Assembly (NCBI RefSeq): GCF_027492855.1
Contig: NZ_JAPUDY010000022.1
Coordinates: 42,628-106,627, forward strand
From: Acidovorax sp.
GTDB taxonomy: Bacteria; Pseudomonadota; Gammaproteobacteria; Burkholderiales; Burkholderiaceae_C
Length of the DNA: 64,000 bases
Reading direction: 5' to 3'
The notes under the pieces were generated by a model. It did not search any database, had not been told where the DNA came from, and saw only the letters and a program-made list of their open reading frames with translations. The position numbers and the translations under genes are program-made. Shown one piece after another: positions 18,679-47,671 of the stretch (the first letter of the stretch is position 1; every line of letters begins with the position of its first letter).

Positions 18679-19677
18679 ATGAGCACCCCAGAAGTCGTCC
18701 GCGAAGCGCAATCCGCCGAAACCTACAACCCCCTGGCCAAGCAGAAGGCGGCCGCCAAGCTGTCGCGCATTCCCATCAAGGTGGAACACGGCGAAGTGCT
18801 CAAGAAGCCCGAGTGGATCCGCGTGAAGGCGGGCAGCCCCACCACGCGCTTCTACGAGATCAAGGAGATCCTGCGCGAGCACAAGCTGCACACGGTGTGC
18901 GAAGAGGCCTCCTGCCCCAACATCGGCGAGTGTTTCGGCAAGGGCACGGCCACGTTCATGATCATGGGCGACAAGTGCACGCGCCGCTGCCCGTTCTGCG
19001 ACGTGGGCCATGGCCGCCCTGACCCGCTCGACAAGGACGAGCCGCTGAACCTGGCCAAAACGATTGCCGCGCTCAAGCTCAAGTACGTGGTGATCACCAG
19101 CGTGGACCGCGACGACCTGCGCGACGGCGGCAGCGGCCACTTCGTGAAATGCATCCAGAACATCCGCGAGCTGTCGCCCGCGACGCAGATCGAAATCCTG
19201 GTGCCCGACTTCCGCGGCCGCGATGACCGCGCGCTCGAAATCCTCAAGGCCGCACCGCCCGACGTGATGAACCACAACCTGGAGACCGCGCCCCGCCTGT
19301 ACAAGGAAGCGCGCCCCGGCTCCGACTACCAGTTCAGCCTGAACCTGCTGAAAAAGTTCAAGGCCCTGCACCCCAACGTGCCGACCAAGAGCGGCATCAT
19401 GGTCGGCCTTGGAGAGACGGACGAGGAAATCCTGCAGGTGATGCGCGACATGCGCGAGCACAACATCGACATGCTGACCATCGGCCAGTACCTGTCGCCC
19501 AGCAACAGCCACCTGCCCGTGCGCCGCTACGTGCACCCCGACACCTTCAAGATGTTCGAGCAAGAAGCCTACAAGATGGGCTTCAGCCACGCCGCCGTGG
19601 GCGCCATGGTGCGCAGCAGCTACCACGCAGACCAGCAGGCGCACGCCGCGGGCGTCTGTGTCGATGACTCGAAGTAA
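18679..19677 (+). CDS. lipA: Lipoyl synthase LipA, C-terminus altered by the transposon
   Basis: A 332-residue radical SAM enzyme that inserts two sulfurs into protein-bound octanoate. Both cluster motifs are present: [12 protein letters not shown] (auxiliary 4Fe-4S) and CTRRCPFC (SAM cluster). The original gene ended at GVSTOP: joining the bases either side of the transposon restores GTC-TGA. The insertion replaces that stop with CVDDSK and TAA from the transposon end, so the protein is six residues longer at a tail beyond the active site. Activity is probably kept. Confidence 0.96.
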
Positions 19678-19730
19678 ATGAGAAAATCTCGAAGTAGCTA
19701 AGAAAATATCGAAGGTGATACGAAAAAATC
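19659..19730 (+). repeat. Left end of the Tn7-like element with three tandem sites
   Basis: Terminal TGTC is followed by three similar units of about 20-22 bases: TCGAAGTAAATGAGAAAATC (19669-19688), TCGAAGTAGCTAAGAAAATATC (19689-19710) and TCGAAGGTGATACGAAAAAATC (19709-19730). Tn7 ends carry arrays of 22-bp TnsB sites of this kind. The first 18 bases include the new end of lipA. Confidence 0.85.
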
Positions 19731-19780
19731 AACCCCTTCCGATGGACGCCGCTTAACCGCCGGAAACCCTTCCAAGCCCA

Positions 19781-21502
19781 GTGGAGACGAGCGCCCCCGC
19801 CTTGCGTATTGACGCCTTTCCCAAGGGAAAGGACATATGGCGCATAGACTGGTATGGCCCCATTGCATTTCCCGACCGGATGGCTCGTCGAAGACAGCCT
19901 TCGGTTCTGGTCTACCTGTCCAAGGTAGTTGCCCCCTCTCCCCTCGAAAACCCTTCGGCCCTGTTGCAGCCGAACTGCACACTACCGGCGAGCCAGCAGG
20001 CCAAGAGGTGGGTTAGCGTAGGGACAACGCTCCTGCTGCGTATCGGAGATCTTTGGCAGAACCAGACATTGGTTGCGCGCCCCAGCTACGAGCAGGCCGT
20101 TTTCGAAGATGTCACCATCAACTGGGAACTGACGAGTCTGGTCAAGGCGGGCTTGAGTTCTGATGCTGGCTCATTTCTGCTGCCACTGGCCCATCATCCG
20201 TGGCACCTCAACAACACCCACTCCTATTGCGTACGTGTCGCGCTTCCTGATGACCGAGTCCTGGTCGTGCCCTGCATGGAGCTGGTGCGCTTTTACTTTG
20301 GATCTTCCAGCGAACTCATATCCCGCCTGTTTGCACCGCCCTTGAGCCGAAGCAAGCTTCACCATAGGTCGTTTCTTACCCCGAAGGGTTACATGAGCCT
20401 TGAACTCGCGGAGCGCATCCCGCGCGCGAGTGCTGAAGATGTTGCTCGGATCGCAGGCTGCGATGCAGCTTGGAGAGCGGCAGCCCTCGTTTCGTCGTCA
20501 TGCTTGAAGTCATCTGTCGCAGGCAGAGACATTTATCCGCAAGCAATTTTTCCGTTCGAAGGCACTACAACGCTTCAGGCGAGTGGCTTATGGCTCCCGC
20601 ACGGCGATGTGGAGAACGGCACTTTCCTCGCCTATCAGTTGCACAGTTGCTACCACCCGTTCCCCTTCCGGACGCTGCGCGTCAAACTCCACCAGAACAC
20701 GCCCCCAAAACCTCCGGCGTATCGTCCCAATCTGGAACAGCCAGAGAAGCCAGCGGAGCCGGTTGTTCGCAAGAAGGCGGCCGAGCCTGTACCCGCCGAG
20801 CCGCAGACGCTCCAAGAGCACGATGCGTCGTCCACGCTAGCGCCCACATTACGAACTCAAGCAAGTACACGCCGGTTTCCAGATCTGGATGGCAAGTCCA
20901 TCCACACAGAGCGCCTTCTTCACAAAGACGCGCAACCACAACCCTCGACCTCACCCGCCCTTGTTTCAGAACTTGCTGTGGGGCAACCTGGCTCCGCACG
21001 ACGCATTCGACCTGTTAGCCTGGTTGAGATCAGAACTGGCAGCCGCAAACCGGCCTTGCCTACTTTCCTGCGCTACGCAGTTGGAGCCATGGAGTCCATG
21101 CCAACGCTTGAAGTCCAGGTCCTGACTGCAAGTGACGAAGATGGCTGGACGGTTCCAGTAAGCCTGCTGGCCGATGAAGATGGCGTGATCAACGACGGAT
21201 TCTTTTTTTCGGAAAACGGAAAACCACGGCGCATTGCACTCTTCCTAATCTCTTCTGGGAGTATGAAAGCGCTGCTCACGGTGATGGAAGGGCACGAGCT
21301 TTTTCCGGAGTTCCAACCGCTCAGCGAAATAGAGGCCGCGGATCCAAGCCGCTTGCTCTTGGACAGGCTCGAAGAGCTTGCAAGACCGCGATCCGAGCCG
21401 CCTTTTCGGAGGTGGCGTGTCGCGCCAACCCTGAATGATGCTCAGAAACGCATTGCGCGATGGCTCGCCTATAAATTCCAATCGCCTGATACGGCGACAT
21501 AA
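19781..21502 (+). CDS. TnsE-like transposition protein (tentative)
   Basis: A 573-residue soluble protein with no signal peptide, starting at GTG 122 bases inside the left transposon end. Its N-terminal pattern (KDIWRIDWYGPI, later VLVVPCMELVRFYFGSSSELISRLF) and its C-terminal stretch NGKPRRIALFLISSGSMKALLTVMEG resemble, by memory, the corresponding parts of Tn7 TnsE, including a disordered Pro/Glu/Ala-rich linker between about residues 305 and 420. TnsE directs Tn7 toward replicating DNA. It runs convergent to tnsA, unlike Tn7. The assignment is an inference from faint similarity plus context. Confidence 0.5.
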   Translation: METSAPALRIDAFPKGKDIWRIDWYGPIAFPDRMARRRQPSVLVYLSKVVAPSPLENPSALLQPNCTLPASQQAKRWVSVGTTLLLRIGDLWQNQTLVARPSYEQAVFEDVTINWELTSLVKAGLSSDAGSFLLPLAHHPWHLNNTHSYCVRVALPDDRVLVVPCMELVRFYFGSSSELISRLFAPPLSRSKLHHRSFLTPKGYMSLELAERIPRASAEDVARIAGCDAAWRAAALVSSSCLKSSVAGRDIYPQAIFPFEGTTTLQASGLWLPHGDVENGTFLAYQLHSCYHPFPFRTLRVKLHQNTPPKPPAYRPNLEQPEKPAEPVVRKKAAEPVPAEPQTLQEHDASSTLAPTLRTQASTRRFPDLDGKSIHTERLLHKDAQPQPSTSPALVSELAVGQPGSARRIRPVSLVEIRTGSRKPALPTFLRYAVGAMESMPTLEVQVLTASDEDGWTVPVSLLADEDGVINDGFFFSENGKPRRIALFLISSGSMKALLTVMEGHELFPEFQPLSEIEAADPSRLLLDRLEELARPRSEPPFRRWRVAPTLNDAQKRIARWLAYKFQSPDTAT

Positions 21503-21910
21503 CGTAAGCAAACAGTGAACCGATCCATAGCGGGAGCCAGAATAGCAAGCGAGATGGCGGGTCTCAGCGAAAATTGTTTCCAAAAATGGCTTAGCAAGAG
21601 GAAATTGCTGGCATGGCAACGAAAACTACGCCTCCCAGTGCTGCCCCCCGTTGGGCGGGTGGCGCGCACGCACGCCAGGAGTTCATCGCCGAGTCGTTCG
21701 ATCGCGTAGCTCAAACTCGCGAAGAGGCACTTGCGAGCGCTCGGACCATGGCCTTGAATATGCTTAGTGGCCGGCCCTTGCAGTGCGCGCCTGCTCGGTG
21801 AACGGGCAAGTCCTTCCACCGGTAGCTCTGGGACGCGGCAAGTCTCCCCCCGTGGGGGCGATTCATCGCTCATGCAAGAATCCTTGTGGCAGCAATCGCT
21901 CGTTTTCATC
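21503..21910. other. Poorly coding stretch after the tnsE-like gene
   Basis: About 400 bases without a convincing gene apart from one small frame (21613-21801). Base composition is lower in GC than the neighbours at the start. It may be debris from the lost transposition genes or from cargo insertion. No inverted repeats or promoters stand out. Confidence 0.4.
21613..21801 (+). CDS. Possible small protein, 62 residues
   Basis: Starts at ATG with GAGG about 11 nt upstream. The middle (RQEFIAESFDRVAQTREEALASARTMALNML) looks like a regular amphipathic helix, which argues weakly for real coding. Not recognised; it could equally be the remnant of a longer gene. Confidence 0.25.
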   Translation: MATKTTPPSAAPRWAGGAHARQEFIAESFDRVAQTREEALASARTMALNMLSGRPLQCAPAR

Positions 21911-22510
21911 ATGCTCTTCGTTCGCCTGCCTTACCGCCCCACTGTCCACCTGATCCTGACTCTGGCATTCTTGGCGTCGTTCGTTCTCACGGCGTTGACT
22001 CCCGTGCACGCTGCCCCACCCATCACGTACAGTAAGGACGGGGTGAGTTTCGAACACCCTGCCGCCTGGAAAGTGACCGAAGATGTCGTAGCGCAGGACG
22101 AAACCCGCCTGCGTAGCATCGACCTCGAAGGCCCCAATGAGGCCGTCGTGAGTTTGATGTTCAGCCCTTTCCTTGCAAGTCAGGACATCGAGAAATTCGC
22201 GGCTACAGCTGCCCGCAATCGTGCGGACGCCGCACGAGCCAATACCGCCCAACAGGCTCGAATGGGCCCTGTGACTGTCACACCCGTTACCCGTCAAGTT
22301 GCTGGCAAGGAGAACAAGGGTGTTTCGCAGCGTTTCGTGGTCAGCATGCTGGGCCAGAACCTGCCGCATGAGGCGCGTTTTTTCAAAGCCAATCTGGGCG
22401 AGACCACCGTGATCGTCATGACCCAGGTGGCAGAGGAAGATGCCAAGGCCGCCGAGCCGGGCTTCGTGATGGCGTTGGACACCCTGCGTTACCGCGTAAG
22501 CAAGCGCTAA
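21911..22510 (+). CDS. Hypothetical exported protein (DcrB/PsbP-like fold possible)
   Basis: About 199 residues from the ATG at 21911. An N-terminal signal peptide (PTVHLILTLAFLASFVLTALTPVHA) precedes a mature domain that begins ITYSKDGVSFEHPAAWKVTED, a motif shared by DcrB/DUF1795-type periplasmic proteins. The strands TVTPVTRQVAGKENKGVSQRF and ETTVIVMTQV fit an alpha-beta sandwich. An upstream in-frame ATG at 21872 is less suitable because it lengthens the n-region. Function unknown; first cargo gene of the transposon. Confidence 0.6.
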   Translation: MLFVRLPYRPTVHLILTLAFLASFVLTALTPVHAAPPITYSKDGVSFEHPAAWKVTEDVVAQDETRLRSIDLEGPNEAVVSLMFSPFLASQDIEKFAATAARNRADAARANTAQQARMGPVTVTPVTRQVAGKENKGVSQRFVVSMLGQNLPHEARFFKANLGETTVIVMTQVAEEDAKAAEPGFVMALDTLRYRVSKR

Positions 22511-22737
22511 GCGCTGGAAGGCTTGACTCACTAGCCTCTACTTCCTAACGCTCGCAATCTGTTGCAGCCGCCAGCCGCGGAGGTTCTGGATGCAGCACCT
22601 GCGCAAGTGCAATGAAGCCTGTGAGACATCTGCAACACCTCTTCTCCACTTGGCCCCCAGCGCCATTGCCGCCTTGCCCAGACAAGAAATCCTCGGCACC
22701 ATGGGGCCACGAACACTGCTTAGGCGCGATCATCAGC

Positions 22738-23160
22738 ATGCCCTTGCCTCCGGTTCTTGACCGATTTCTGCAAGCCCAAGAGCCTGTCTGGGCGCGCGTG
22801 CTCGCCGAACTCAGAGCTGGCAAAAAGCGCACACACTGGATGTGGTTTGTGTTTCCGCAGTTCAAAGGCCTGGGGCATAGCGACATGGCAACACGCTATG
22901 CCATCCAGTCCTACGCCGAGGCGCAGGCCTACCTCGCACACCCCGTGCTCGGGGGCCGCCTCCTGGAGTGCTGCCAGATCCTGCTTGAGCTGGAGACCTC
23001 TTCTGCCCTGGATGTCTTCGGCACTCCGGACGACCTCAAGCTGCGCTCGAGCATCACCCTGTTTGGCAAAGCGTCATCCAAGGGCAATGTGTTTGAAGCC
23101 TTGCTTCAGAAGTATTTCGGCGGTCTGCCAGATGCTCGCACGATTGAATTGCTCAAGTAG
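22738..23160 (+). CDS. DUF1810 family protein
   Basis: About 140 residues from the ATG at 22738, the usual size of the family; the frame is open 42 codons further upstream but without family similarity. Conserved parts are DRFLQAQEPVWARVLAELRAGKKRTHWMWFVFPQ, then AYLAHPVLGGRLLECCQILL, DVFGTPDDLKLRSSITLF and FGGLPDARTIELL. The biochemical role of DUF1810 (YpfI/calpastatin-annotated) proteins is not known. It is an isolated plus-strand gene in the transposon cargo. Confidence 0.85.
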   Translation: MPLPPVLDRFLQAQEPVWARVLAELRAGKKRTHWMWFVFPQFKGLGHSDMATRYAIQSYAEAQAYLAHPVLGGRLLECCQILLELETSSALDVFGTPDDLKLRSSITLFGKASSKGNVFEALLQKYFGGLPDARTIELLK

Positions 23161-23182
23161 CCAGGTCCTGCTGGCAACTAAA

Positions 23183-23890
23183 TTAGTGCGAGTGTTCATT
23201 GAGTTCCGCGAGGGACGTTTGCCTTTGTGCAAGAGCCTTCACTGCCAGACCAAAACGGCGAAGCTCTTCGTAGTTTGTCTTGATCTCCGCAGCTACCTTG
23301 CATTGGGATTCAGGTCTCTCATCGGCTTGGTAGTCCGTAGCTAGCTGAACATAGACTCCGACCGTACCCGTGCCACCAATGGGATAAAACCTGAGACCGA
23401 CATGCAGTTGCTCAATGGAGTCTCCTGTACGGCTCCAGTAGCCGCCCACCAGCTCAATCGGCCTCTCTTTCGCAAGCGGGAACGTTTCCGCAAGGCGCGT
23501 GCCGAACTCAGTCAACCTCGTGGCATCAAACCAAGCCGATGCCCTGCCAGTGAATGCCGGGTGCAAAAGCTCGACGAATAGCTCCGCAGTTCCATCAGGA
23601 TCGTGCTCGATGCGCAGACGCAGGACTGGGTTCACCGGGGTACTTTGGGCGTGAAATTGAAGAGGAGCGAGGACGAAGCGATTGTCTCCGAACGTCGTCA
23701 CGCAGCCGAAGTTGGCGTTACCGAAGGTCACCGGGTCATTGTGAAGTGACTCGGTATCAATACTTCGCAGCCGTTCGCCGAAACGCTGGGTAGTGACGCC
23801 TCTTAACAGACGGTCAACGATTGGCGAGAGATGTTGCTGATCAACATGAAGTCCACTTTGCAGCGAGTGCAGCAGATCAAAATCACGCAT
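23183..23890 (-). CDS. Hypothetical protein, 235 residues
   Basis: Not recognised. The reading frame has normal codon structure and no signal peptide or membrane helix. The product is beta-rich (FGCVTTFGDNRFVLAPLQF, ELFVELLHPAFTGRA, LHVGLRFYPIGGTGTVGVYVQLATDY) with a helical C-terminus (TNYEELRRFGLAVKALAQRQTS). It lies alone, convergent to the DUF1810 gene, and its upstream side abuts a MITE-like repeat. Confidence 0.55.
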   Translation of the reverse strand: MRDFDLLHSLQSGLHVDQQHLSPIVDRLLRGVTTQRFGERLRSIDTESLHNDPVTFGNANFGCVTTFGDNRFVLAPLQFHAQSTPVNPVLRLRIEHDPDGTAELFVELLHPAFTGRASAWFDATRLTEFGTRLAETFPLAKERPIELVGGYWSRTGDSIEQLHVGLRFYPIGGTGTVGVYVQLATDYQADERPESQCKVAAEIKTNYEELRRFGLAVKALAQRQTSLAELNEHSH

Positions 23891-23926
23891 AGTGCGTCCG
23901 CTTTGGGCACATAGCGGACACTGGCG

Positions 23927-24073
23927 GGCTGTTGAAAAACCACGGAGGATTCCACTTGATCAAAAAATTGATCACATAGAACGGCCTACCAGCGATTCTG
24001 TTTGATCAGATAGGGGTGGACGAGCCCTCAAAACCATCAAAAACTCTCACTTGGAATCGGTTTTTCAACAGCC
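23927..24073. repeat. MITE-like element, 147 bp
   Basis: Bounded by perfect 15-bp inverted repeats GGCTGTTGAAAAACC / GGTTTTTCAACAGCC; inside them GATTCCA recurs on both sides. It has no coding capacity, is AT-rich, and contains TTGATCA repeats. Such GGCTGTTGAAAA ends are seen on several insertion sequences, so it may be a non-autonomous derivative. No exact target duplication was found next to it. It sits just upstream of the LysR gene and could carry its promoter. Confidence 0.55.
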
Positions 24074-24106
24074 TGCGAGAGCAGGAACTTGCACAAGGGA
24101 AACAGA

Positions 24107-25042
24107 ATGGATCGGTTGTTGCTGTCGATGCGGGTTTTTGAGCGGGTCGTGACCGAAGGTGGCTTTGCTTCTGCCGCGCGGGCGCTAGACATGTCCCCAC
24201 CGGTGGTCACGCGCTTGGTGGCCGACTTGGAAGATCACCTTGGAACCCGATTGTTGCAGCGTAGTACCCGGCGCCTATCGCTCACCGAAGCAGGCCAGTC
24301 TTACCTAGACAGGGTACGCCACATCTTGCAGGACATCGAGGAAGCGCATGCGGTGGCCAGTGCCCACACCCAAGAAATGGTCGGTACATTGCGCATACAC
24401 GCGCTGCCAGTGCTGGCTACTCATGTGATCTCACCCCTGCTGCCAGGTTTTTTCGCGCGCTATCCTAGGATCCGCATTGATCTGGACGTCGAAACAAGGC
24501 GCGAACTACCTATCGAGGACTTCGATCTCACGCTCATTGGCACAAGGGAAGGATTCGACGCCAATGTGGTCGCCCGCAAAGTTGCAGACTCTGAGGCGAT
24601 CTTGGTGGCCTCCCCAATTTACGTGAAACGCAAGGGGCTGCCAAGTGCGCCGAACGATTTGCCCCAGCACGCCTGCCTGATGCATGCACTCGCCCTCGGC
24701 AGAGCGAGTGGCTGGAGCATGTGGTGCTCAGAGAATCCCACCCAGTCGGTATCAGTGGCAGTGGAGCCCATAATGGTCTCCAATCACACAGACTCGCTAG
24801 TACAGGCCGCCCTGGACGGTGTTGGTATCGCTTCGGTCGCCATAAACCTTGTGGCGCCCTACCTTACGCGTGGTGAACTGGTGCGGGTACTCAGCCCCTG
24901 GGTTACCGGTCGTTTCTCCCTGTACGCTGCGATGCCCAGTCGCAAGTTCGTACCTCAACGCACCCGCGTGTTCCTGGACTATCTGATCGAGCAAACCCAA
25001 GAGCAGACTGCTCGCGCACTGCAAGCCTGCAAAGCCGTATAG
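24107..25042 (+). CDS. LysR-type transcriptional regulator
   Basis: 311 residues. The N-terminal winged helix-turn-helix spans about residues 1-60 (MRVFERVVTEGGFASAARALDMSPPVVTRLVADLEDHLGTRLLQRSTRRLSLTEAG), followed by a linker helix and a periplasmic-binding-like effector domain (ILVASPIYVKRKGLP, LVQAALDGVGIASVAINL). The ATG at 24107 has AAGGGA upstream and is preferred over a GTG six codons earlier. No obvious divergent target gene adjoins it, because a MITE-like repeat occupies the upstream gap. Confidence 0.92.
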   Translation: MDRLLLSMRVFERVVTEGGFASAARALDMSPPVVTRLVADLEDHLGTRLLQRSTRRLSLTEAGQSYLDRVRHILQDIEEAHAVASAHTQEMVGTLRIHALPVLATHVISPLLPGFFARYPRIRIDLDVETRRELPIEDFDLTLIGTREGFDANVVARKVADSEAILVASPIYVKRKGLPSAPNDLPQHACLMHALALGRASGWSMWCSENPTQSVSVAVEPIMVSNHTDSLVQAALDGVGIASVAINLVAPYLTRGELVRVLSPWVTGRFSLYAAMPSRKFVPQRTRVFLDYLIEQTQEQTARALQACKAV

Positions 25043-25087
25043 CCCGTCGCATAACGTTGGCCCGGGCGGCTGTTATCTTGGCACTCC

Positions 25088-25118
25088 TTGACAATGAACT
25101 CCACTTCAAGGTTAAGGT
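25088..25118 (+). promoter_or_regulatory. MerR-type promoter of the PfpI-like gene
   Basis: TTGACA and TAAGGT are separated by 19 bases, the over-long spacer that MerR-family activators untwist. The spacer ATGAACTCCACTTCAAGGT matches the spacer of the second promoter (28808-28826) at most positions and shares the ACTTCAA half-site. A ribosome site AAGGAGA precedes the ATG at 25143. Confidence 0.7.
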
Positions 25119-25142
25119 GCTGAGCCAAGGAGAACCTTCGGC

Positions 25143-25829
25143 ATGACCCACCGCATCCTGCACGTTGTCAGCAACGTTTCCCACTACGACGATCCGGCCG
25201 AGCCCACCGGCCTGTGGCTGTCGGAGCTGACCCATGCCTGGCATGTGTTTGCGGCCGCAGGCCATGAACAGAGGCTCGTGAGCCCATCGGGCGGCCTTTC
25301 CCCGCTGGAGCCGCGGTCGCTGAAGTGGCCGAACATTGACGCCACCGCGAAGGACTGGCTGGCCGACGCGACGCGCATGGCGTTGCTGTCGAACACCGCC
25401 CGGCCCGATGAGATCGATCCGGCGGACTTCGGCGCGGTCTACTTCACCGGCGGGCACGCCGTCATGTGGGACTTTCCGGACGCGCACGGGCTGCAGCGCA
25501 TCACCCGCGAGATCTACGAGCGCGGCGGCATCGTCTCCTCGGTGTGCCACGGCTACTGCGGCCTGCTGAACACGGCGCTGTCGGATGGCGCGCTGCTGGT
25601 TGCCGGGCGGCGGCTCACCGGCTTTTCCTGGCGCGAGGAAGTGCTGGCCGGCGTCGCCCGCAAGGTTCCGTACAACGCCGAGGAGGAGATGCGGCGGCGC
25701 GGCGCCCTCTATGAAAAGGCGTGGCTGCCCTTCCTCTCCAAGGTCGTGGTCGATGGAAGGCTGGTGACCGGCCAGAACCCGCAGTCGGCCAAGGCGACGG
25801 CCGAGCAGGTGGCGGCCATGCTTCGCTGA
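25143..25829 (+). CDS. DJ-1/PfpI superfamily protein (type 1 glutamine amidotransferase-like)
   Basis: 228 residues. The nucleophile elbow is VSSVCHGYCG, with the reactive Cys at residue 135 and an adjacent His; the acidic partner may be the Glu in LWLSEL (residue 28). Also visible is YFTGGHAVMWDF. The order resembles Hsp31/YajL-type proteins, which include glyoxalase-III or deglycase candidates that act on reactive aldehydes. The MerR-type promoter upstream links it to the aldehyde dehydrogenase operon. Confidence 0.85.
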   Translation: MTHRILHVVSNVSHYDDPAEPTGLWLSELTHAWHVFAAAGHEQRLVSPSGGLSPLEPRSLKWPNIDATAKDWLADATRMALLSNTARPDEIDPADFGAVYFTGGHAVMWDFPDAHGLQRITREIYERGGIVSSVCHGYCGLLNTALSDGALLVAGRRLTGFSWREEVLAGVARKVPYNAEEEMRRRGALYEKAWLPFLSKVVVDGRLVTGQNPQSAKATAEQVAAMLR

Positions 25830-25857
25830 TACACAGGCAGGCGCCCTGAATAGGCCG

Positions 25858-27752: not shown

Positions 27753-27782
27753 GGAGTCTCTCCCGGTTCCTGCGCGGCGCGG

Positions 27783-28766: not shown

Positions 28767-28801
28767 GGTGTTGCCTTGGAGGTGGAATGACATCGCCGCG
28801 A

Positions 28802-37432: not shown

Positions 37433-37455
37433 TTCAACCCAACCACGGAGACTCC

Positions 37456-39515: not shown

Positions 39516-39517
39516 GG

Positions 39518-39583
39518 AATTTTTCAAGCGAAAAATGCCTTCAGCGCTTATGCAGCAAGCGCAAGCAGCTATTTAATTGGGAG
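39518..39583. repeat. Dispersed palindromic repeat, copy B (inside the transposon)
   Basis: Contains CAGCGCTTATGCAGCAAGCGCAAGCAGCTATTT, a degenerate form of the element seen best at 49.3 kb. It lies in the 71-bp gap between the convergent chemoreceptor and MalT-like genes and may end both transcripts. Its presence in the cargo suggests that the cargo came from a related host. Confidence 0.5.
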
Positions 39584-39586
39584 CAC

Positions 39587-42313
39587 TCACCCCTTACCCA
39601 AAGGCGCCAGGCCCAACCCGGCCTGCACGGCCTCAAGGCGCGAGCCAACATTGAGCTTCTCGAAGATGTTCTTGAGGTGCCATTTGACGGTCTCGGGGGC
39701 CACGCTCAGCGCCCGGGCAATTTCCTTGTTGGACTGGCCGCGCGCAATGTGTTCGAGGATTTCGACCTCGCGCGCGCTCAGCAACGTGGCCGCGCGGGCC
39801 AGGCCGGGTGAAGGTTGCTGCAGGGGCACGGCCACCTGCTGCGGGCTGCCTTCCAGCCAGCCGTCCAGCAGGGGCAGGTAGAGCTGGCCGATGGACCGGG
39901 AAGCACGGCGCAGCCTGTCCATCAATTGCAACAGCGGCGCGCCTTCGTCGGTGAAGCTGCTGGCCATGGGCTCGGCGCACGCGTAACGCAGCGCGGCCTC
40001 CAGCGCCCCCAGGGCCGCATCGCCCTCGCCCTGCTGTTGCCAGGCCAGCGCCAGCAGCAGCGACGCGCAGGCGCTCAGATAGCGCATGCCCGCCGCGTCC
40101 AACTGCCCGCGCAGTTGCTGGAGCAAATCCACGGCGGCTTCGGAACGGCCCTGGGCCAGGGCCACGCGCGCCGAGGCGCAGCAGAAGCTGCTCCAGGTTT
40201 CCAGAAAGCTCCCCAGGGGCTGCGGGCGCCGCGCGGGCATCAGTCCATTCAGCTCCACCAGCACCTGCTGCGCGTCGGTCAGCCGCCCGGCCTGCAGCAA
40301 GAGGCGGATGGCCTCGGCATCGCAGCCGGCGCGCAGGCGCAGCCAATGGCGCTCGGCGGCCACCTCGCGGGCCTCTTCCAGCACCACCAGCGCCGAGGCC
40401 ACATCGCCCTGGCGCGCGTACACGCGTGCGCTGCCCAGGCAAAAGCGCAGCAGCGAGCCCAGCGGGCATGCTTCCTTGGCCAGCGCGATGCGCCCGTCCA
40501 TCACGCGGGCGGCGGCGGCCATGTCGCCGCGCTCGCAGTGCAGCGCCACGAGGTAGCCCGAGGGCACGGCGGCCGCCGCCGAGTCTCGGCCCACGGCGGT
40601 TTCGGCGCGCAGCAGCGCGCTCTCGAAGATGCGGGCGGCATCGGCCAGCCGCCCCTCCACCATCGCGCCCAGCCCGACCATGCTCTGCCGGTAGACGCTG
40701 GAATAGACGGGCTCGCCATCGGCCATCTCCTGCGGCGTGGCGGCGCGGCGGCGCACCTCGCCGAACTGCCCGTCATAGGCCAGGCCGAAGACCAGCGCGG
40801 TCTGCGCGAAGCGCTGCGCCCAGCGCGAGACGGGCACGGGCGACTGCTCCACACGGCGCCCCAGTTCCAGCGAGCGCGGCGTGTCGTCGGCGAAGCCCGC
40901 GATGAGCGCGCTGACTGACGCCAGTTCGGCGGGCAGAGGGCTGTCGGCGCAGCCATCCTGGACCGCGATCTCGTCGCCGATTTCCTGCACCAGGCGCTCG
41001 GCCTCGGGGATGCGGAAGGACAGGGTCAAGCCCCAGGCCTTGGCGATGCGCAGCCGCAGGCTGCGCTGCACCAGATCGACGGGCAGCTGCGAGAACCAGC
41101 CCAGAAGCGTGGGAATGTCGCTGCGGTCGATCAGCGCGGCCGCGCAGCCCTCGGCCCACTGCACGGCCTGCTCCACGTCGCCCGCCGCTATCGCATGGCG
41201 CACGGCCTCGGGCCACAGCCGCTGGCCCGCGAACCAGCGGCTGGCGCGGCGGTGCAGCGCGGTCAGCTCGCCGCCCAGCTGCACTTCGGCCCGGCGGCGC
41301 AGCGCGTCAGCCATGAGGGTGTGGAAGCGGAACCAGCGCTGCTCGTCGTCGAGCGCACGGAGGAACATGTTGTGCTGCTGCAGCCATTCCAGCTTTTCCC
41401 AGCTGCGCCCGCCGGGCTTGACCATCGCGTCGCACACGTCGCTGCAAAAGCGCTCCAGCACCGACACGCGCAGCGCGAACTGCAGCACCGGCGCGGGCAT
41501 GCGCGAGAGCACGACCTCGTACAGGTAGGCGTCGCCGATCAGCTTCTTGCCCGCCAGCTCGCGCGCCAGCCGCGCCGGTTCGTCGGCATTGCGCAGGGCC
41601 AGCGCCGCCAGCTGCAGGCCGGTGACCCAGCCTTCGGACGCGCTGTTGATGAGTTCGATGCCGGGCCGGTCGAGCGCCACGCCGTGCGCACGCGCGAAGA
41701 AGGCCAGCGCGTCGTCGTTGGAAAAGCGCAGTGCGGCGGCGTCCAAGGTCACGGCCTGCTCCGGCAGAGCCCAGGCGCCCAGCGGCAGGCCCGGATCGCG
41801 GCGCGTGCCGATGCAGACGTGGAAGTTGGCCGGCGCATAGCGCAACAGTCGCGTGACCAGCGCGAGGCTGGCGCGTGAGCCGATGCGCTCGAAGTCGTCG
41901 AGGAACAGGAATACCTCGCGGCCCGCCTGCGCGATCTCGTTGAGCAGCACCGCCTGCACGGTCTTGATGGGCGTGAGCGGGTCGTGTTGCAGCAACTCGG
42001 CGGCCCGGCGGCCCACACCGCGCAGGGCCGAGACGAGGTAGTGCCCGAGCTGCTGCGCATCGTCGTCATCCTCGTCCAGCGTCAGCCACGCCACCGCATC
42101 GCCGCGCTGGCGCAGGGCTTCGTGCCACTCCGTCATCAGCGTGGTCTTGCCAAATCCGGCGGGCGCGACGATGGCCGTGAGCCGCTTGTCCGCCACTTGA
42201 GCCAGCCGCTCCAGCAAAGCCGGCCGTCCCACGGGTTCACCCGCCAGGCGCGGCGGCGTCATCTTGGTGTGGATGAGGGCCAGGCTCCAGCCGCCCCCGC
42301 CGCCGGTGTCCAT
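39587..42313 (-). CDS. MalT-like LuxR-family transcriptional regulator (LAL type)
   Basis: 908 residues. An N-terminal STAND NTPase module (Walker A APAGFGKTT near residue 53, Walker B VFLFLDDFERI), a winged-helix and helical-repeat sensor region, and a C-terminal LuxR helix-turn-helix (LSAREVEILEHIARGQSNKEIARALSVAPETVKWHLKNIFEKLNV). These activators bind ATP and a small inducer. The ATG overlaps the phosphotransferase stop by one base, so the regulator is made from the catabolic operon itself. A longer upstream frame is out of family. Confidence 0.92.
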   Translation of the reverse strand: MDTGGGGGWSLALIHTKMTPPRLAGEPVGRPALLERLAQVADKRLTAIVAPAGFGKTTLMTEWHEALRQRGDAVAWLTLDEDDDDAQQLGHYLVSALRGVGRRAAELLQHDPLTPIKTVQAVLLNEIAQAGREVFLFLDDFERIGSRASLALVTRLLRYAPANFHVCIGTRRDPGLPLGAWALPEQAVTLDAAALRFSNDDALAFFARAHGVALDRPGIELINSASEGWVTGLQLAALALRNADEPARLARELAGKKLIGDAYLYEVVLSRMPAPVLQFALRVSVLERFCSDVCDAMVKPGGRSWEKLEWLQQHNMFLRALDDEQRWFRFHTLMADALRRRAEVQLGGELTALHRRASRWFAGQRLWPEAVRHAIAAGDVEQAVQWAEGCAAALIDRSDIPTLLGWFSQLPVDLVQRSLRLRIAKAWGLTLSFRIPEAERLVQEIGDEIAVQDGCADSPLPAELASVSALIAGFADDTPRSLELGRRVEQSPVPVSRWAQRFAQTALVFGLAYDGQFGEVRRRAATPQEMADGEPVYSSVYRQSMVGLGAMVEGRLADAARIFESALLRAETAVGRDSAAAAVPSGYLVALHCERGDMAAAARVMDGRIALAKEACPLGSLLRFCLGSARVYARQGDVASALVVLEEAREVAAERHWLRLRAGCDAEAIRLLLQAGRLTDAQQVLVELNGLMPARRPQPLGSFLETWSSFCCASARVALAQGRSEAAVDLLQQLRGQLDAAGMRYLSACASLLLALAWQQQGEGDAALGALEAALRYACAEPMASSFTDEGAPLLQLMDRLRRASRSIGQLYLPLLDGWLEGSPQQVAVPLQQPSPGLARAATLLSAREVEILEHIARGQSNKEIARALSVAPETVKWHLKNIFEKLNVGSRLEAVQAGLGLAPLGKG

Positions 42314-43347
42314 CACCGTGCCATGTAGCGCTGGGCGGCCTGCCAGCCCAGTTCGGCCAGCGGGCCGGCCTTGCGGCCATTGTCCGCCGCGTCCTCGGCC
42401 GTGGCGTTGCCCTCCGCCGCGCGCTGGGCGATGCCGTGCAGGATGGCCGCCATGCGGAACAGGTTGTAGGCGATGTAGAAATCCCAGTGCCCGGCCGCCT
42501 GCCGGCCCGTGGCCTGCTCGTACCAGGCGATGTATTCGGCCTCCTGCGGAATGCCCAAGGCGGCCAGGTCCAGCCCTGCGATGCCGCGCCACAGGCTGGG
42601 CGGGATGCGCCAGGCCATGCACTGGTAGGCCAGGTCGGCCAGCGGGTGGCCGAGGGTCGACAGCTCCCAGTCCAGTGCGCCGATGACACGCGGCTCGGTG
42701 GGATGGAAGACGAGGTTGTCCAGCCGGTAGTCGCCGTGCACCAGCGTGGTCTCGTCGCCCGCGGGCAAGTGCGCGGGCAGCCAGTCCATGAGGTGGTGCA
42801 TGGCCTCATTCATGGGCACGGTGGATTCGCGGCACTGGCGCGACCAGCGGGCGATCTGGCGGCCCACATAGTTGCCCTCCTTTCCGTAGTCGCCCAGGCC
42901 CACGGCGCGGTAGTCCACGGCGTGCAGCGCGGCGATGACGCGGTTCATCTCGCGGTAGATGGCGTGGCGCTCGACGGGCTGCATGCCGGGCAGGGACTGG
43001 TCCATGAGCACGCGGCCCTGGAGGAAATCCATCACGTAGAACGGCGTGCCCAGCAGCTCGCCGCTCTCGCAGTAGTGCAGCATGCGCGGCACGGGCACAT
43101 CGGTGCCTGCCAGCGCTTTCATCACGCGGTATTCGCGGTCGATGGCGTGGGCCGATGCGATCAGCGTGCCCGGCGGCTTCTTGCGCAGCACGTAGTCGCG
43201 GCCTTCGCCGGCCGTGATGCGGTAGGTGGGGTTGGACTGGCCGCCCGCGAGCACGCGCACCTCCAGCGGCGCGCTGCCCGCGAGGCCCTGGGCGCGCAGG
43301 TAATCACCGAGCGCTTCCACCGGCAAGGGATTCGCTGGGCCGCTCAT
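42313..43347 (-). CDS. Phosphotransferase (APH-like), ACAD10/YcbJ type
   Basis: 344 residues with an aminoglycoside-phosphotransferase kinase fold: SNPTYRITAGEGRDYVLRKKPPG, the catalytic loop VHGDYRLDNLVFHP and the metal-binding VIGALDWELSTLGHPLADLAYQ. Members encoded with acyl-CoA dehydrogenases (as in ACAD10/11) are thought to phosphorylate hydroxy-acyl substrates so that the dehydrogenase partner can process them. The neighbouring ACAD and SDR support that reading over antibiotic resistance. Overlaps SDR by 4 nt. Confidence 0.88.
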   Translation of the reverse strand: MSGPANPLPVEALGDYLRAQGLAGSAPLEVRVLAGGQSNPTYRITAGEGRDYVLRKKPPGTLIASAHAIDREYRVMKALAGTDVPVPRMLHYCESGELLGTPFYVMDFLQGRVLMDQSLPGMQPVERHAIYREMNRVIAALHAVDYRAVGLGDYGKEGNYVGRQIARWSRQCRESTVPMNEAMHHLMDWLPAHLPAGDETTLVHGDYRLDNLVFHPTEPRVIGALDWELSTLGHPLADLAYQCMAWRIPPSLWRGIAGLDLAALGIPQEAEYIAWYEQATGRQAAGHWDFYIAYNLFRMAAILHGIAQRAAEGNATAEDAADNGRKAGPLAELGWQAAQRYMAR

Positions 43348-44117
43348 AGCGAACTCACCAGGTGCGCGCCATCGACGGCCAGCGTGGCGCCCGACATGGC
43401 CGCTCCCGCATCGGAGGCCAGCAGCAGCAGCGGGCCGTCCAGGTCCGCCACCTCGCCAAAGCGGCGGCTGGGGATGCGTACGCGCAGCTTGTCGCCCTGC
43501 TCGCTCGTGAGGAAGTCGCGGTTCAGATCGGTGACCACGTAGCCGGGCAGCAGCGCGTTCACTCGGATGCCGTGGCGCGCCAGCTCCAGCGCCAGGGCCT
43601 TGGTGGCCTGCACCACGCCGGCCTTGGAGATGGCGTATGGCGCCACGCCGCCCGCCACGCGCTCGCCGAGGATGGAGGCCACGTTGACGATGCTGCCGCC
43701 ACGGCCCGCGGCCACCATGCGGCGCGCGGCCTCGGTGGCCACGAGCCAGTTGCCCTTGAGGTTGGTGCCGAGCACGTGGTCGAAGTCCTGTTCGGTCTGC
43801 TCCAGCACGGAACGCGTCACCGTCACCCCCGCGTTGTTGACCACCACGTCGGGCCGCCCCCAAGCGCACAGCGCGTCGAAGCAGGCGCGCACGCTGGCGT
43901 TGTCGGTCACGTCGAGCGCGAAGGCGCGCGCCTCGCCGCCCTGCGCGGCGATGGCGTCCACCACGCCCTGCAGCTTGTCCACGCGGCGCGCGGCCAGGGC
44001 CACGCGGGCGCCGGCGGCGGCCAGCACTTCTGCGAAGTGCGTGCCCAGACCACTGGAGGCGCCAGTCACGAGCGCCAGCTTGCCTTGCAGGCTGAACTGA
44101 TCCATCACGGCGCTCAT
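43344..44117 (-). CDS. Short-chain dehydrogenase/reductase
   Basis: 257 residues. Cofactor motif VTGASSGLG, NNAG motif VVVNNAGV, catalytic Ser in VNVASILGER and the YxxxK motif in YAISK. A classical SDR acting on a hydroxyl or keto group of an unknown substrate. The ATG overlaps the acyl-CoA dehydrogenase stop by 4 nt and the stop overlaps the phosphotransferase start by 4 nt, giving strict coupling. Confidence 0.93.
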   Translation of the reverse strand: MSAVMDQFSLQGKLALVTGASSGLGTHFAEVLAAAGARVALAARRVDKLQGVVDAIAAQGGEARAFALDVTDNASVRACFDALCAWGRPDVVVNNAGVTVTRSVLEQTEQDFDHVLGTNLKGNWLVATEAARRMVAAGRGGSIVNVASILGERVAGGVAPYAISKAGVVQATKALALELARHGIRVNALLPGYVVTDLNRDFLTSEQGDKLRVRIPSRRFGEVADLDGPLLLLASDAGAAMSGATLAVDGAHLVSSL

Positions 44118-45316
44118 GCCACACCTCCTTCGCGCAGCAGTTCGGCCTCGGCCTTCTCGGCCATGTGGGCGAGCTTGCGCGCCATGCTCCAGCGGTGCAC
44201 CTCGCTCGGGCCGTCGTAGATGCGGAAGGCGCGCATGTCGGTGAAGATGCGCATCACCGGCGTCTCGCCCGTCACGCCCTGGCCGCCGAGCATCTGCACG
44301 CTGCGGTCCACCACGCGCCATTCGGCCTCGGAGCACACGACCTTGGCACGGCTCGACTCGAAGTTGCACTTCTCGCCCTGGTCCAGCAGCCAGGCCGTGT
44401 GCCAGATGTGCAGGCGCGCGGTGTGCAGGTCCATGTCGTTGTCGGCCACCATGAAGCCCACGCCCTCGTGCTCCACCAGCGGTTTGCCGAAGGCGTGGCG
44501 CTTGCGCACGTAGTTCAATGCCGTGTCGTGCGCGCGGCGCGCCTGGCCCAGCCAGCGCATGCAGTGCGTGAGGCGCGCGGGCGCCAGGCGCACCTGCGCG
44601 TAACGAAAGCCCTTGCCCACCTCGCCGAGCACGTCGGCGGCGGGCACGCGCAGGTCGTGAAAGCGCAGCACGCCGTGGCCGCCGGTGAAGCAGGCGTCCA
44701 TCGCGTCCATGTTGCGCTCCAGGGTGATGCCGGGGCGGTCCATGTCCGAGAGGAACATGGTGGCCGAACCGTCTTCCATGCGCGCCATGATGATGGCGTA
44801 GTCCGCTCCGTCGGCGCCGGTGATGAACCACTTGAGGCCGTTGATGACGTAGTCGTCGCCGTCGCGCACCGCGGTGGTCTGCAGCATGGACGGATCGGCC
44901 CCCGCGCCGGGCGAAGGCTCGGTCATCGCGAAGCACGAGCGTAGCTCGCCCGCCACCTGCGGGCGCAGCCAGCGCTCCTTCTGCGCGGGCGTGGCCACCT
45001 CCTCCATCAGGTGGATGTTGCCCTCGTCGGGCGCGTGGATGTTGAGCGCCGTGGGCCCCAGGCGCGAGTAGCCCGCCTCCTCGAACACTACGGCCTTCTC
45101 CACGTGCGTGAGGCCCATGCCGCCCATCTCGCGCGAGGCGTGGGGCGTGAGCAGGCCCGCCGCCCTGGCGCGCGCCACCAACTCGCGGCGCAGCGACTCA
45201 TCGGGGCCGTGGTGCGACTGGCGCGGGTCGTTTTCCAGCGGGATCACCTGCTCTGCGATGAATTGCCGGGTCTTGTCGCGCAGGGCGTGCAACTCGGGGG
45301 AGATAGAAAAATCCAT
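44114..45316 (-). CDS. Acyl-CoA dehydrogenase (ACAD10/11-like)
   Basis: 400 residues with a complete acyl-CoA dehydrogenase fold: FAMTEPSPGAGADPSMLQTTAVRDGDDYVINGLKWFITGA is the FAD-binding middle part, and the C-terminal helix region includes KVVCSEAEWRVVDRSVQMLGGQGVTGETPVMRIFTDMRAFRIYDGPSEVHRWSMARK. The position of the catalytic base near the end looks like the class that pairs with APH-like kinases. First gene of the minus-strand operon ACAD-SDR-APH-MalT-like. Confidence 0.93.
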   Translation of the reverse strand: MDFSISPELHALRDKTRQFIAEQVIPLENDPRQSHHGPDESLRRELVARARAAGLLTPHASREMGGMGLTHVEKAVVFEEAGYSRLGPTALNIHAPDEGNIHLMEEVATPAQKERWLRPQVAGELRSCFAMTEPSPGAGADPSMLQTTAVRDGDDYVINGLKWFITGADGADYAIIMARMEDGSATMFLSDMDRPGITLERNMDAMDACFTGGHGVLRFHDLRVPAADVLGEVGKGFRYAQVRLAPARLTHCMRWLGQARRAHDTALNYVRKRHAFGKPLVEHEGVGFMVADNDMDLHTARLHIWHTAWLLDQGEKCNFESSRAKVVCSEAEWRVVDRSVQMLGGQGVTGETPVMRIFTDMRAFRIYDGPSEVHRWSMARKLAHMAEKAEAELLREGGVA

Positions 45317-45333
45317 GTGGCCCTTGATTCATT

Positions 45334-45366
45334 GATCTACAAAATTGTTGGACAATATTGTAGATC
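45334..45366. promoter_or_regulatory. Palindromic operator between ACAD operon and GntR gene
   Basis: A nearly perfect 33-bp palindrome, GATCTACAA-A-ATTGT-TGG-ACAAT-A-TTGTAGATC, centred on base 45350 in the 139-bp divergent gap. The inner and outer arms share one centre, and only the two central-flank A bases break symmetry. It lies 18-50 bases upstream of the ACAD start. It is the likely site for the GntR-family regulator encoded next door, which would control both directions. Confidence 0.75.
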
Positions 45367-45455
45367 GATAAACATTACAATCGCAACCTCCAAAGGGCGC
45401 TCTGCGTCTTACCTCCCTCAACTGCCTCCTTGACCTATGCAGGAATCCTCAACCC

Positions 45456-46124
45456 ATGCGCTTCGATGAAGCCGCCGCCAGCGCATCGAGCGCGGTGTTC
45501 TACGGGATCATGAACGGCTTGGCCGAGCAGAAACTCGTTCCAGGCCAACGGCTCGTGGAGGTCGATCTGGCGGAGCAATACCAGGTGAGCCGCAATTCCG
45601 TACGGGAGGCACTGCAGCAACTTGCGGCGCAAGGCGTCGTCGAGATACCGCGCAACAAGGGCGCGGCGATCCGGTCGCTGAGCCTGCAGGAAACCCTAGA
45701 AGTCCTGGACGTGGCTGAGCGCATGACCGGGCTGCTCGCCAGGAGCGCCGCCCTGGGCATTGCCGCCGGCCAGGCGGGCGACTGCATCCGCGAGTCGCTC
45801 ATCGAACTCGACCAAGCCAATGCCGCCCAGGATCCCGACGCCTTCGCGCGGGCGCGGCGCAGGCTGTACCGCGCGCTGCTCCATGCCAGCGGCAGCCGAG
45901 AGTTGAAGCGACTTTTTCCATCCATCCAGATGCCCATCGTCTATGCGCAGCATCGTCCTTCGACCCTGCAGAAGGTTCGCATGCGCGATTACCAAGCCAT
46001 GTGCGACGCCGTGCTTCGTGGCGACGCGCAGGCCGCGGACGCGGCGGGCATGGCGCACGTGCAGAACGTACGCGAGGCCATCGTCCGCCAGCTTTCCAGC
46101 AGCATTGGCAGAACCGATCAGTAA
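45456..46124 (+). CDS. GntR-family (FadR/FCD subgroup) transcriptional regulator
   Basis: 222 residues. The winged helix (PGQRLVEVDLAEQYQVSRNSVREALQQLAAQGVVEIPRNKGAAIRSLS) is followed by an all-helical FCD effector domain (QETLEVLDVAERMTGLLARSAAL ... RDYQAMCDAVLRGDAQAADAAGMAHVQNVREAIV). FCD regulators respond to carboxylic acids. It is divergent from the ACAD operon across a strong palindrome and lies 9 nt before the epimerase gene. Confidence 0.92.
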   Translation: MRFDEAAASASSAVFYGIMNGLAEQKLVPGQRLVEVDLAEQYQVSRNSVREALQQLAAQGVVEIPRNKGAAIRSLSLQETLEVLDVAERMTGLLARSAALGIAAGQAGDCIRESLIELDQANAAQDPDAFARARRRLYRALLHASGSRELKRLFPSIQMPIVYAQHRPSTLQKVRMRDYQAMCDAVLRGDAQAADAAGMAHVQNVREAIVRQLSSSIGRTDQ

Positions 46125-46133
46125 GGAGATGAG

Positions 46134-47051
46134 ATGCAAACGATATTGGGCGCGAACGGCCAGATCGCAGTGGAACTGGCGCGGGAACTGCAACGCAAAT
46201 ACCCCGGTGAACTGAGGCTCGTCAGCCGCAATCCGCGCAAGGTCCACGACACCGACAGCCTGGTGTCCGCCAACCTCCTCGATGCGGGCCAGACCTTGGA
46301 TGCGGTCAGGGGCAGCAGCGTGGTCTATTTCACCGCGGGCCTGCCGCCAAACACCGAGCTGTGGGAAACGCAGTTCCCCGTGATGCTGCAAAACGCCCTG
46401 GATGCATGCCGGGCGGCAGGCGCGAAGTTCGCCTATTTCGACAACACCTACATGTACCCGCAGGACGACCGGCTGCAGACGGAGGCAACGCCCTTCGCGC
46501 CGGTCGGGCGCAAGGGCAAGGTGCGCGCGGCGATGGCGTCCATGGTGCTTAAAGAGATGGCGCGCGGGGAGATCCCGGTCCTCATCGGCCGAGCGCCTGA
46601 GTTCTATGGCCCGGGCAAGACGCAGAGCTTCACGAACGCGCTGGTGATCGAGAGGCTCCAGGCGGGCCAAAAACCCCGCGTGCCGGTGCGCGACGACACG
46701 CGGCGAACGCTCATCTGGACACCCGACGCGAGCCGCGCGCTGGCGGCCCTAGGCAATGCGCCGGATGCGTTCGGGCAGACCTGGCACCTGCCTTGCTGCG
46801 ATGACCGGCCGACCTACCGGGAGTTCGTCGCCATGGCCAGCGAGGTCTTCGGCCGGGATGCCGCCTACACGATCATCGGCCGGTGGACCCTGGCCGCCGC
46901 CAGCCTCTTCTCCAGCCAGGTGCGCGAGATCAAGGAGCTGCTGCCCCGGTACGGGCAGGACAACCTCTTCGATTCCACCAAGTTCAAGTGCCGCTTCCCG
47001 GATTTCGAGGTGACCACGTACAGGGAAGGTCTTGACTTGATTCGACAGTAG
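46134..47051 (+). CDS. NAD-dependent epimerase/dehydratase-family protein
   Basis: 305 residues of the extended SDR type. It starts almost directly at the Rossmann motif (TILGANGQIAVELARELQ), so the usual first beta strand is minimal. YFDNTYMYP holds the active-site Tyr environment, and APEFYGPGKTQSFTNAL is the C-terminal substrate region. Probably one transcript with the GntR gene. Its last codons run up to the break in tnsA, so the cargo insertion or deletion edge lies at its stop; whether its natural end is kept is unclear. Confidence 0.82.
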   Translation: MQTILGANGQIAVELARELQRKYPGELRLVSRNPRKVHDTDSLVSANLLDAGQTLDAVRGSSVVYFTAGLPPNTELWETQFPVMLQNALDACRAAGAKFAYFDNTYMYPQDDRLQTEATPFAPVGRKGKVRAAMASMVLKEMARGEIPVLIGRAPEFYGPGKTQSFTNALVIERLQAGQKPRVPVRDDTRRTLIWTPDASRALAALGNAPDAFGQTWHLPCCDDRPTYREFVAMASEVFGRDAAYTIIGRWTLAAASLFSSQVREIKELLPRYGQDNLFDSTKFKCRFPDFEVTTYREGLDLIRQ

Positions 47052-47489
47052 CTGGAGCGCAAGTAGATACCCACGCAAGAACTTGATGTTGGCGAGCCGC
47101 GGCGTACGGATTTCCTTCTCAGTTCTCTTTTGAAATCGCCAGCCCTTCTCCAGCACATACGCGTTTGCAGCGGCAAACTTTGCCGCATATTCGTCAGCGT
47201 AGCGATCCAGGAATGCCTGGGTTTTGACCTCCACGAGGTCTCGAGGAGGCTCAACCCCATCCGATCCCGGATGAAACCGCACAAGCAGATCTGGGACATA
47301 CGAGCGCCCGTCAGGCAAAGGGATCTCAACAGGCTGTGCTTCATACCCCGACACACGGGGATCGAAGTCCAAAAGGAGCATGAAATCCTTCTCAAGTGTG
47401 GACTCGAATTCCACCATTTCCGCGGAAAGGGCTGTTGCATGGCGGCCAGTGACGAAGAGATAATTCTTTGGAACTTTGCGAACGGGCAT
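47046..47489 (-). pseudogene. tnsA: tnsA fragment: Tn7-like TnsA endonuclease, C-terminally truncated
   Basis: About 145 residues of TnsA-type sequence from the ATG at 47489. The restriction-like nuclease core is intact: FESTLEKDFMLLLDFDPRV (residues 28-46, active-site Glu33), YEAQPVEIPLPDGRSYVPD (Asp67) and LVEVK (Glu87, Lys89), then NIKFLRGYL. Past that point the frame simply reads the antisense of the epimerase gene for 90 residues, so the TnsC-binding C-terminus is lost. It is transcribed inward from the right transposon end, as tnsA is in Tn7. Confidence 0.82.
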
Positions 47490-47524
47490 GCATGGCCCTC
47501 CCGGCCAACCAGCGCGACCGATCC

Positions 47525-47617
47525 AGTCGCACCTACTTCGCTACTAATTCTCACCTACTTCGAGCTAGCATGCCAAATATTTCACGCGATTTTCTCATTA
47601 ACTTCGAAACGAAGACA
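47525..47617 (-). repeat. Right end of the Tn7-like element with three sites
   Basis: Read inward on the minus strand: TGTCTTCGTT, then TCGAAGTTAATGAGAAAATC (47588-47607), then after a gap TCGAAGTAGGTGAGAATTA (47545-47563) and CGAAGTAGGTGCGACT (47525-47540). The first unit matches the left terminal unit at 19 of 20 bases. The sites are spaced further apart than at the left end, an asymmetry also seen in Tn7. Confidence 0.85.
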
Positions 47618-47671
47618 GTCTGAGAGATTGGGCACCCGGCCTCTCCCCGCATCGCAAAAAAGGGCAGCACC

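Follow-up and report, generated by a model that had tools for sequence, protein, structure and literature searches.

A decayed Tn7-like transposon in the lipA stop codon of an Acidovorax genome, and a family of relatives found at the same site

The DNA analyzed here, referred to as the window, is a 64,000-nucleotide stretch of contig 22 (NZ_JAPUDY010000022.1) from Acidovorax sp., whose genome is a 4.6-Mb draft in 110 contigs, and it holds a Tn7-like transposon lodged in the stop codon of lipA, the gene encoding lipoyl synthase. The lipA reading frame (18679..19677, plus strand; 332 codons; Pfam Radical_SAM and LIAS_N) is host DNA up to position 19658, and its last six codons (CVDDSK) and stop derive from the junction and the transposon end. 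The sequence shows one copy of a 5-bp target duplication, GTCTG, on each side of the element, at 19654..19658 on the left and 47618..47622 on the right (both given on the plus strand). The left transposon end (19659..19728, plus strand), similar to the ends of relatives, comprises TGTC and three TnsB-like sites (19669-19688, 19689-19708 and 19709-19728), and the right end (47544..47617, minus strand), likewise read from the sequence, comprises TGTC and TnsB-like sites at 47588-47607 and 47544-47563. The left junction reads ...GCGGGC-GTCTG-TGTCGATGACTCGAAGTAAATGAGAAAATC..., and the right junction, 28 kb on, reads ...GATTTTCTCATTAACTTCGAAACGAAGACA-GTCTG-AGAG.... A preliminary description, made from these letters alone, gave the limits as 19654..47622; they are exact to the base but include both GTCTG copies, which are host bases, and the element proper spans 19659-47617.

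The two ends bear the traits expected of a Tn7-like element, namely TGT-type termini with inverted arrays of ~20-bp TnsB-like sites and a 5-bp target-site duplication, the latter being GTCTG both in the window and in a related genome (G247). The preliminary description had reported TGTC plus an inverted 20-base block identical at 19 of 20 positions, and this agreement extends over the outermost 30 bases, of which 24 are identical in inverted orientation. It had also noted further copies of the motif behind each end; on the left, three head-to-tail copies of the 20-mer start 11, 31 and 51 bases in from the terminus and match at 20, 16 and 13 of 20 positions, and on the right there are two copies, at 11 and 55 (19 and 14 of 20), together with a partial one, CGAAGTAGGTGCG. 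Across the 4.6-Mb genome the pattern CGAAGTNNNTGAGAAAAT occurs without mismatch at the two window ends only; one mismatch admits three further sites, one of them the second left-end copy, and a reversed-pattern control gave no matches in the same genome. The assignment to Tn7-like ends, the duplication and the insertion in the lipA stop codon all hold.

The element contains little of a transposition machinery. A conserved 573-aa TnsE-like protein, recognized from its homologs and from a predicted C-terminal domain that best matches TnsE, is encoded at 19781..21502 (plus strand), beside the lipA-side end as in most members of the family described below. At the far end, a tnsA remnant (47064..47489, minus strand) encodes residues 1-142 only before its frame enters cargo; it contains the Pfam TnsA N-terminal domain (42.2 bits against a cut-off of 26.5) and is 76% identical to the TnsA of G247 over those residues. 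The ~25 kb between them (21767..47051) is cargo, mostly catabolic, named by Pfam for part and by eye from translations for the remainder, and it occupies the place that tnsB-tnsC-tniQ hold in the sibling elements. Its Pfam families are DUF1810, GntR, epimerase, DJ-1, periplasmic binding protein, CoA-transferase, MalT/GerE, APH and acyl-CoA dehydrogenase, with an acetoacetate-decarboxylase-like gene whose ADC match lies below the cut-off; also listed are LysR- and MerR-like regulators, DJ-1/PfpI, an aldehyde dehydrogenase, a short-chain dehydrogenase/reductase, a MalT/LuxR regulator, an APH-like kinase, a CoA-transferase pair and a branched-chain amino-acid-type ATP-binding cassette transporter. 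The CoA-transferase genes reach at most 74% identity in long matches to relatives, and 73%, or 79% over 263 bases, to other places in the same genome, values that would fit a foreign origin of the cargo. Searches of the window by tblastn with the TnsB, TnsC and TniQ of a Tn7-like element on contig 46 of this genome (C46) found no tnsB, tnsC or tniQ, and the sole match of a lipA-type TnsB in the whole genome is the C46 TnsB (36% identical). The preliminary description gave complete boundaries, but the transposon inside them is not complete: a fragment of tnsA alone represents the tnsA-tnsB-tnsC-tniQ set. With just the TnsE-like gene and this fragment the window copy should not move without help, and it is a decayed and probably non-autonomous member. 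No convincing direct repeats that would account for the replacement of tnsB-tnsC-tniQ by cargo were found among the matches listed, and tRNA and Rfam scans of the window (Rfam at gathering score) returned nothing.

The site before insertion can be read from relatives. To the right of the element lies a host AraC-family gene (47672..48376, plus strand; Pfam HTH_18), and a search with this gene yielded 20 fetched loci, same-genus genomes included: the window itself, 14 loci at which lipA and araC are neighbors, and five without lipA in the part fetched. At each of the eight junctions shown, lipA has its own stop and the araC match starts 43-75 bp past LipA residue 325; the congeners represent the empty site, with lipA ending in HAAGV-stop and followed directly by araC. 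Removing the element and one GTCTG from the window, which according to the preliminary description rejoins lipA as GTC-TGA, gives the same ...HAAGV-stop ending and the same gene order. None of the eight junctions has a natural CVDDSK ending, and there is thus no sign that lipA had such an ending before the element arrived.

The preliminary description left open whether lipA is a new target or the place of a chance insertion, and a search for related elements and their sites answers in favor of a recurrent target. All copies were found via the TnsE-like gene, homologs of which are present in 12 of 399 genomes of the host's family (own genome included). A longer end pattern (at most two mismatches) is found in eight of the 399, again including the own genome; six of these carry the TnsE-like gene too, G265 and G298 lack it and look like chance matches, and a control pattern occurred once, in one genome. 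A second collection, consisting of one scan of named genomes that are partly the same as those of the first set, gave 45 TnsE-like loci, Comamonadaceae, Oxalobacteraceae, Sphaerotilaceae and Burkholderiaceae among them. Thirty-one are at the lipA stop codon, one is tentatively so, 11 come from genomes with an apparently unoccupied lipA end (lacking an end pattern over 110 bases: L076, L078, L079, L080, L106, L107, L108, L114, L117, L118 and L119), and two are undecided. At 29 of the 31 the lipA match ends no more than 200 bp upstream of the TnsE-like match, and the end pattern is at the lipA end in every one; L086 has the end pattern at lipA, with the TnsE-like gene 5.9 kb inside, and at L110 lipA is followed on the same contig by TGT and end repeats, with the TnsE-like gene ~6 kb inside. 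The tentative case is L111, where lipA is 2.9 kb from the TnsE-like gene and no end pattern is seen there. The undecided loci are L092, at a contig edge, and L109, in whose genome lipA is followed by end-like repeats near a contig end. Four insertions found separately (window, G247, G117 and G422) bring the total to 35 firm cases and one tentative case, and this recurrence rules out a chance insertion. Genome G157 was left out of this count: its right flank is an araC homolog after GTGGC, and the sequence fetched to the left showed no lipA.

Two side observations concern this site. The end-like repeats after lipA in the genome of L109 (L177) differ in sequence type and may represent another Tn7-like lineage at lipA. 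In G422, a second, split TnsE-like copy (L068, ~1558-3029) is located ~7 kb past the tnsA of the lipA element, which suggests that elements may pile up at lipA.

The position and orientation of the insertions are nearly constant. Among 31 lipA loci examined, 18 share the spacing of the window, with the transposon starting 17 nt past LipA residue 321, and 29 fall in the range of 13-23 nt; the distance is 36 in one, and the start was not found by pattern in L111. In 25 of the 31, and in the window, the LipA frame closes inside the transposon end, with tails such as VYVNDSK and VDVNNQ. As read from these junctions, the insertions lie at the lipA stop codon or no more than a few bases from it, mainly in beta-proteobacteria, and leave LipA intact apart from a short tail, as the transposon end usually supplies a new stop. 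This need not be a special adaptation, since the left end of the window element has stop codons in all three frames within ~30 bases. Wherever tnsA is on the same contig it is at the side far from lipA (11 members: G247, G422, G117, L083, L084, L085, L086, L088, L090, L095 and L103); insertion at the lipA 3' end with the non-tnsA end facing lipA is the combination by which we propose to define the family. In Tn7 it is the tnsA end that faces glmS, whereas in the lipA family the end away from tnsA faces the gene. Of 20 lipA genomes searched for a tnsA gene, 16 have one, as compared to neither of two others, and three of six further genomes of the host's family do so as well (three of the six being those of L076, L086 and L107 again). 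Matching 5-base duplications flank the elements of the window, G247, L090, L085 and L086. The alternative that the lipA end is a general recombination hot spot, at which Tn7-like machinery without a preference of its own happens to accumulate, could draw on what looks like tandem or rearranged DNA around some copies (G422 and G157), but the same kind of transposon end faces lipA, mostly at the same base, and we give this alternative hardly any credence.

Recurrence could also be mimicked by a single ancient insertion at lipA that was inherited vertically. On a tree of TnsE-like proteins (frames under 450 aa excluded, L110 labelled as other) the lipA label is indeed clustered, requiring nine changes against a shuffle mean of 13.6, with four of 500 shuffles as low. 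Yet the congeners of the window genome have an empty site, the gene occurs in only the 12 family genomes noted above, the duplications differ between hosts, and Variovorax hosts whose LipA proteins are 92-94% identical carry TnsE-like proteins that are only 39-41% identical, all of which makes vertical inheritance a most implausible account. We consider it quite likely that the window element is a decayed and probably non-autonomous representative of a Tn7-like family whose attachment site is the 3' end of lipA, with TniQ as the putative reader of that site.

The siblings carry the machinery that the window copy lacks, with tnsA-tnsB-tnsC-tniQ at the far end and the TnsE-like gene, as a rule, close to the end that faces lipA; the full gene set is present in G422, L095 and others, with Pfam TniQ and TniB matches and a TnsA-like match below the NCBIfam cut-off. 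A compact one is the Massilia frigida element of ~8.5 kb (L095/L154), whose larger frames are the TnsE-like gene, a 462-aa gene, tniQ, tnsC, tnsB and tnsA. The 462-aa gene (L095:7303-8691), its sole larger cargo frame, resembles by eye an AlbA/RecG-type protein. Where complete, the TniQ of lipA members is 336-378 aa long, and its predicted structure aligns over residues 25-353 with the TniQ of CRISPR-associated transposons (CASTs), I-F3 and I-B. This fold could mean that an RNA guide, from a concealed CRISPR or another source, directs the element to lipA, and CASTs with guides to conserved genes are described in passages of PMC11406308; but in L095/L154, the one member whose cargo was read for Cas genes, none of the larger frames looks Cas-like by eye, the window has no Rfam family at gathering score, and guidance by RNA appears very improbable.

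That TniQ reads lipA is suggested instead by the Ralstonia elements L078-L080, in whose genomes the lipA ends are free. Between L078 and the lipA members the median identities are 59% for TnsC, 54% for TnsB and 39% for the TnsE-like protein, about those among the lipA members themselves (57, 52 and 41%), whereas for TniQ the median is 34% as compared to 49%, and the drop is strongest in residues 286-353 (18% as compared to 42%). Because TniQ alone of these four proteins has diverged, chiefly in its C-terminus, we infer that TniQ is the reader of lipA. The comparison took 15 rows as lipA members (G157 among them) and seven labelled otherwise, and left out the partial TniQ of L091, L097 and L111, and also L100. 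The 15 rows share a C-terminal motif, approximately R-Y/H-N-h-L-x-K/R-D-F ... P-x-W/F-Y, with single-position exceptions, and the C-terminus of L100 carries it as well. In four other elements not seen at lipA (L106, L114, L117 and C46) the C-terminal medians are 14-21%. L110, one of the seven, has a lipA-like C-terminus (44%); it was labelled non-lipA, its lipA lying beyond the stretch fetched, until that lipA was found, on the same contig, to end in a transposon end.

The same comparison bears on another candidate reader, the TnsE-like protein, which might have exchanged replication forks for a fixed site, the short TniQ then serving only as a bridge to TnsC. Its gene adjoins lipA in most copies (all copies having been found via this gene), passages of PMC10293859 associate a short TniQ with additional selectors, and its model combines OB-like folds with the TnsE-like C-terminal domain, both nucleic-acid-binding types. 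But adjoining lipA follows from location at the lipA-side end, the Ralstonia TnsE-like proteins are about as close to those of lipA members as the latter are to one another and yet are not at lipA, and TnsE-like genes are also found in long-TniQ elements not seen at lipA (C46, and L106 with its free lipA end). A TnsE-like selector seems unlikely, although less so than the other alternatives.

If TniQ is the reader, the C-terminal helical module of the short TniQ, unaided or helped by a host factor, would recognize the conserved coding sequence at the 3' end of lipA, and the lipA-bound TniQ would bring in TnsC and the TnsAB transposase, while the TnsE-like protein would serve a second route to other DNA. 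A wobble-position signal that might mark the recognized DNA was looked for in 33 distinct lipA 3' ends, and none was seen. The window copy would have arrived while it, or a helper, still had the whole machinery. We are evenly divided on the wider proposal that a small CAST-type TniQ, a kind described as acting with a Cas or TnsF partner, itself reads a fixed site through an exchangeable ~70-residue C-terminal module, the family being a compact, protein-only, site-specific Tn7 system (TnsABC plus a ~350-aa TniQ) whose end also provides the target gene with a substitute 3' end.

Several observations weigh against lipA as a site read by TniQ. In TniQ residues 286-353, the least similar two lipA members (25%) do not exceed the most similar Ralstonia-lipA pair (26%); Ralstonia is a single lineage, so the link between TniQ and site rests on few independent changes, and the other non-lipA relatives are distant in every protein compared. 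According to passages of PMC10293859, a short TniQ is a hallmark of elements with an additional selector, and a lone short TniQ that reads DNA would then be unusual. In L082, L101 and L102 tniQ and lipA are on different contigs, and the assignment of this tniQ to the lipA copy is putative; the tniQ frame in the genome of L091 is short (178 aa), and tnsB is in pieces in G247 and G157, so these copies may be inactive too. As regards the site, 11 of 16 left-right pairs have no matching duplication, and the matches in L082 and L111 join pieces on different contigs and may be due to chance; by a rough estimate about one chance match is expected, as compared to three firm ones (L090, L085 and L086) that adjoin end-like sequence on the same contig. 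Finally, close relatives of lipA members sit elsewhere (L076, L107 and a second copy in G117), and lipA elements without a TnsE-like gene would have been missed.

These copies elsewhere bear on the role of the TnsE-like protein. The second copy in G117 (C1 near 3654600, L063) has a lipA-type left end and a TnsE-like gene whose protein is identical at 563 of 576 residues, and adjoins, by eye, the end of a reverse-transcriptase-like frame rather than lipA; L076 adjoins an IS3-like frame, also by eye. Both would fit, without proving, a second and less specific route such as TnsE gives Tn7. The 573-aa protein of the window has no Pfam or NCBIfam family, and its model gave no Foldseek match at E <= 0.001, but in a structural second look TnsE ranked first. 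Four weak sequence-profile matches to the PDB were taken as spurious. Against plasmids, the 573-aa protein gave one weak match, and the matches of TnsB and TniQ were all under 60% identity.

The family shares features with several known systems. Among the closest are Tn6022 and the AbaR-type elements of comM, which, according to passages of PMC10293859, have TnsA, TnsB, TnsC, a short TniQ (369 aa there) and a TnsE that stands apart from the core genes, close to the left end, an arrangement matched by the remote TnsE homolog of the lipA family. They differ in having TnsF next to TniQ, whereas no TnsF-like or conserved gene was seen by eye in the translations after tniQ in the lipA members examined, and they insert into and inactivate comM, whereas LipA is preserved; Tn6022 was compared by description rather than by sequence. 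Tn7 resembles the family in its site at the 3' end of a conserved gene (glmS, through TnsD), 5-bp duplication, controlled orientation, TnsB-site arrays and TnsE. It differs in that its TnsD has a DNA-binding C-terminal domain of its own (PMC11406308, in part), as compared to a TniQ of ~350 aa and no long glmS-targeting TnsD at the lipA site. The CASTs share the TniQ fold, but no Cas effector was seen by eye in the compact Massilia member, nor was any Cas gene seen beside the tniQ of the family. Tn6230 (yhiN), described in passages of PMC11406308 as Tn7-like with a fixed chromosomal site of unknown molecular detail, was also compared by description only and uses a different site. The attachment sites named in those passages are few (glmS, comM, yhiN, parE and tRNA genes). 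Among the matches listed in open-licence PMC full texts, which exclude supplements, no account of lipA as a Tn7-like site was found, and 'Tn7-like' together with 'lipoyl synthase' gave nothing; within that literature lipA was not found described as a Tn7-like landing site, though such a listing may exist. A conserved metabolic gene that serves as a landing site, mainly across Burkholderiales, would explain where islands of catabolic and other cargo enter and provides a rule for finding them, and the family offers a compact natural case, with a natural change in TniQ, for learning how TniQ proteins choose their targets.

Two further observations concern the window genome. The C46 element (L024:10229-16998) is a second Tn7-like operon of this genome, with the order tnsA-tnsB-tnsC-TniQ (533 aa)-TnsE-like; lipA is absent from the fetched 20 kb, and the ends and site of the element were not found. 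In the window cargo, positions 23921-23941 and 24059-24079 form a 21-bp inverted repeat of the GGTTTTTCAACAGCC type, 90% complementary and 117 bp apart, which resembles the ends of a small insertion-sequence remnant.

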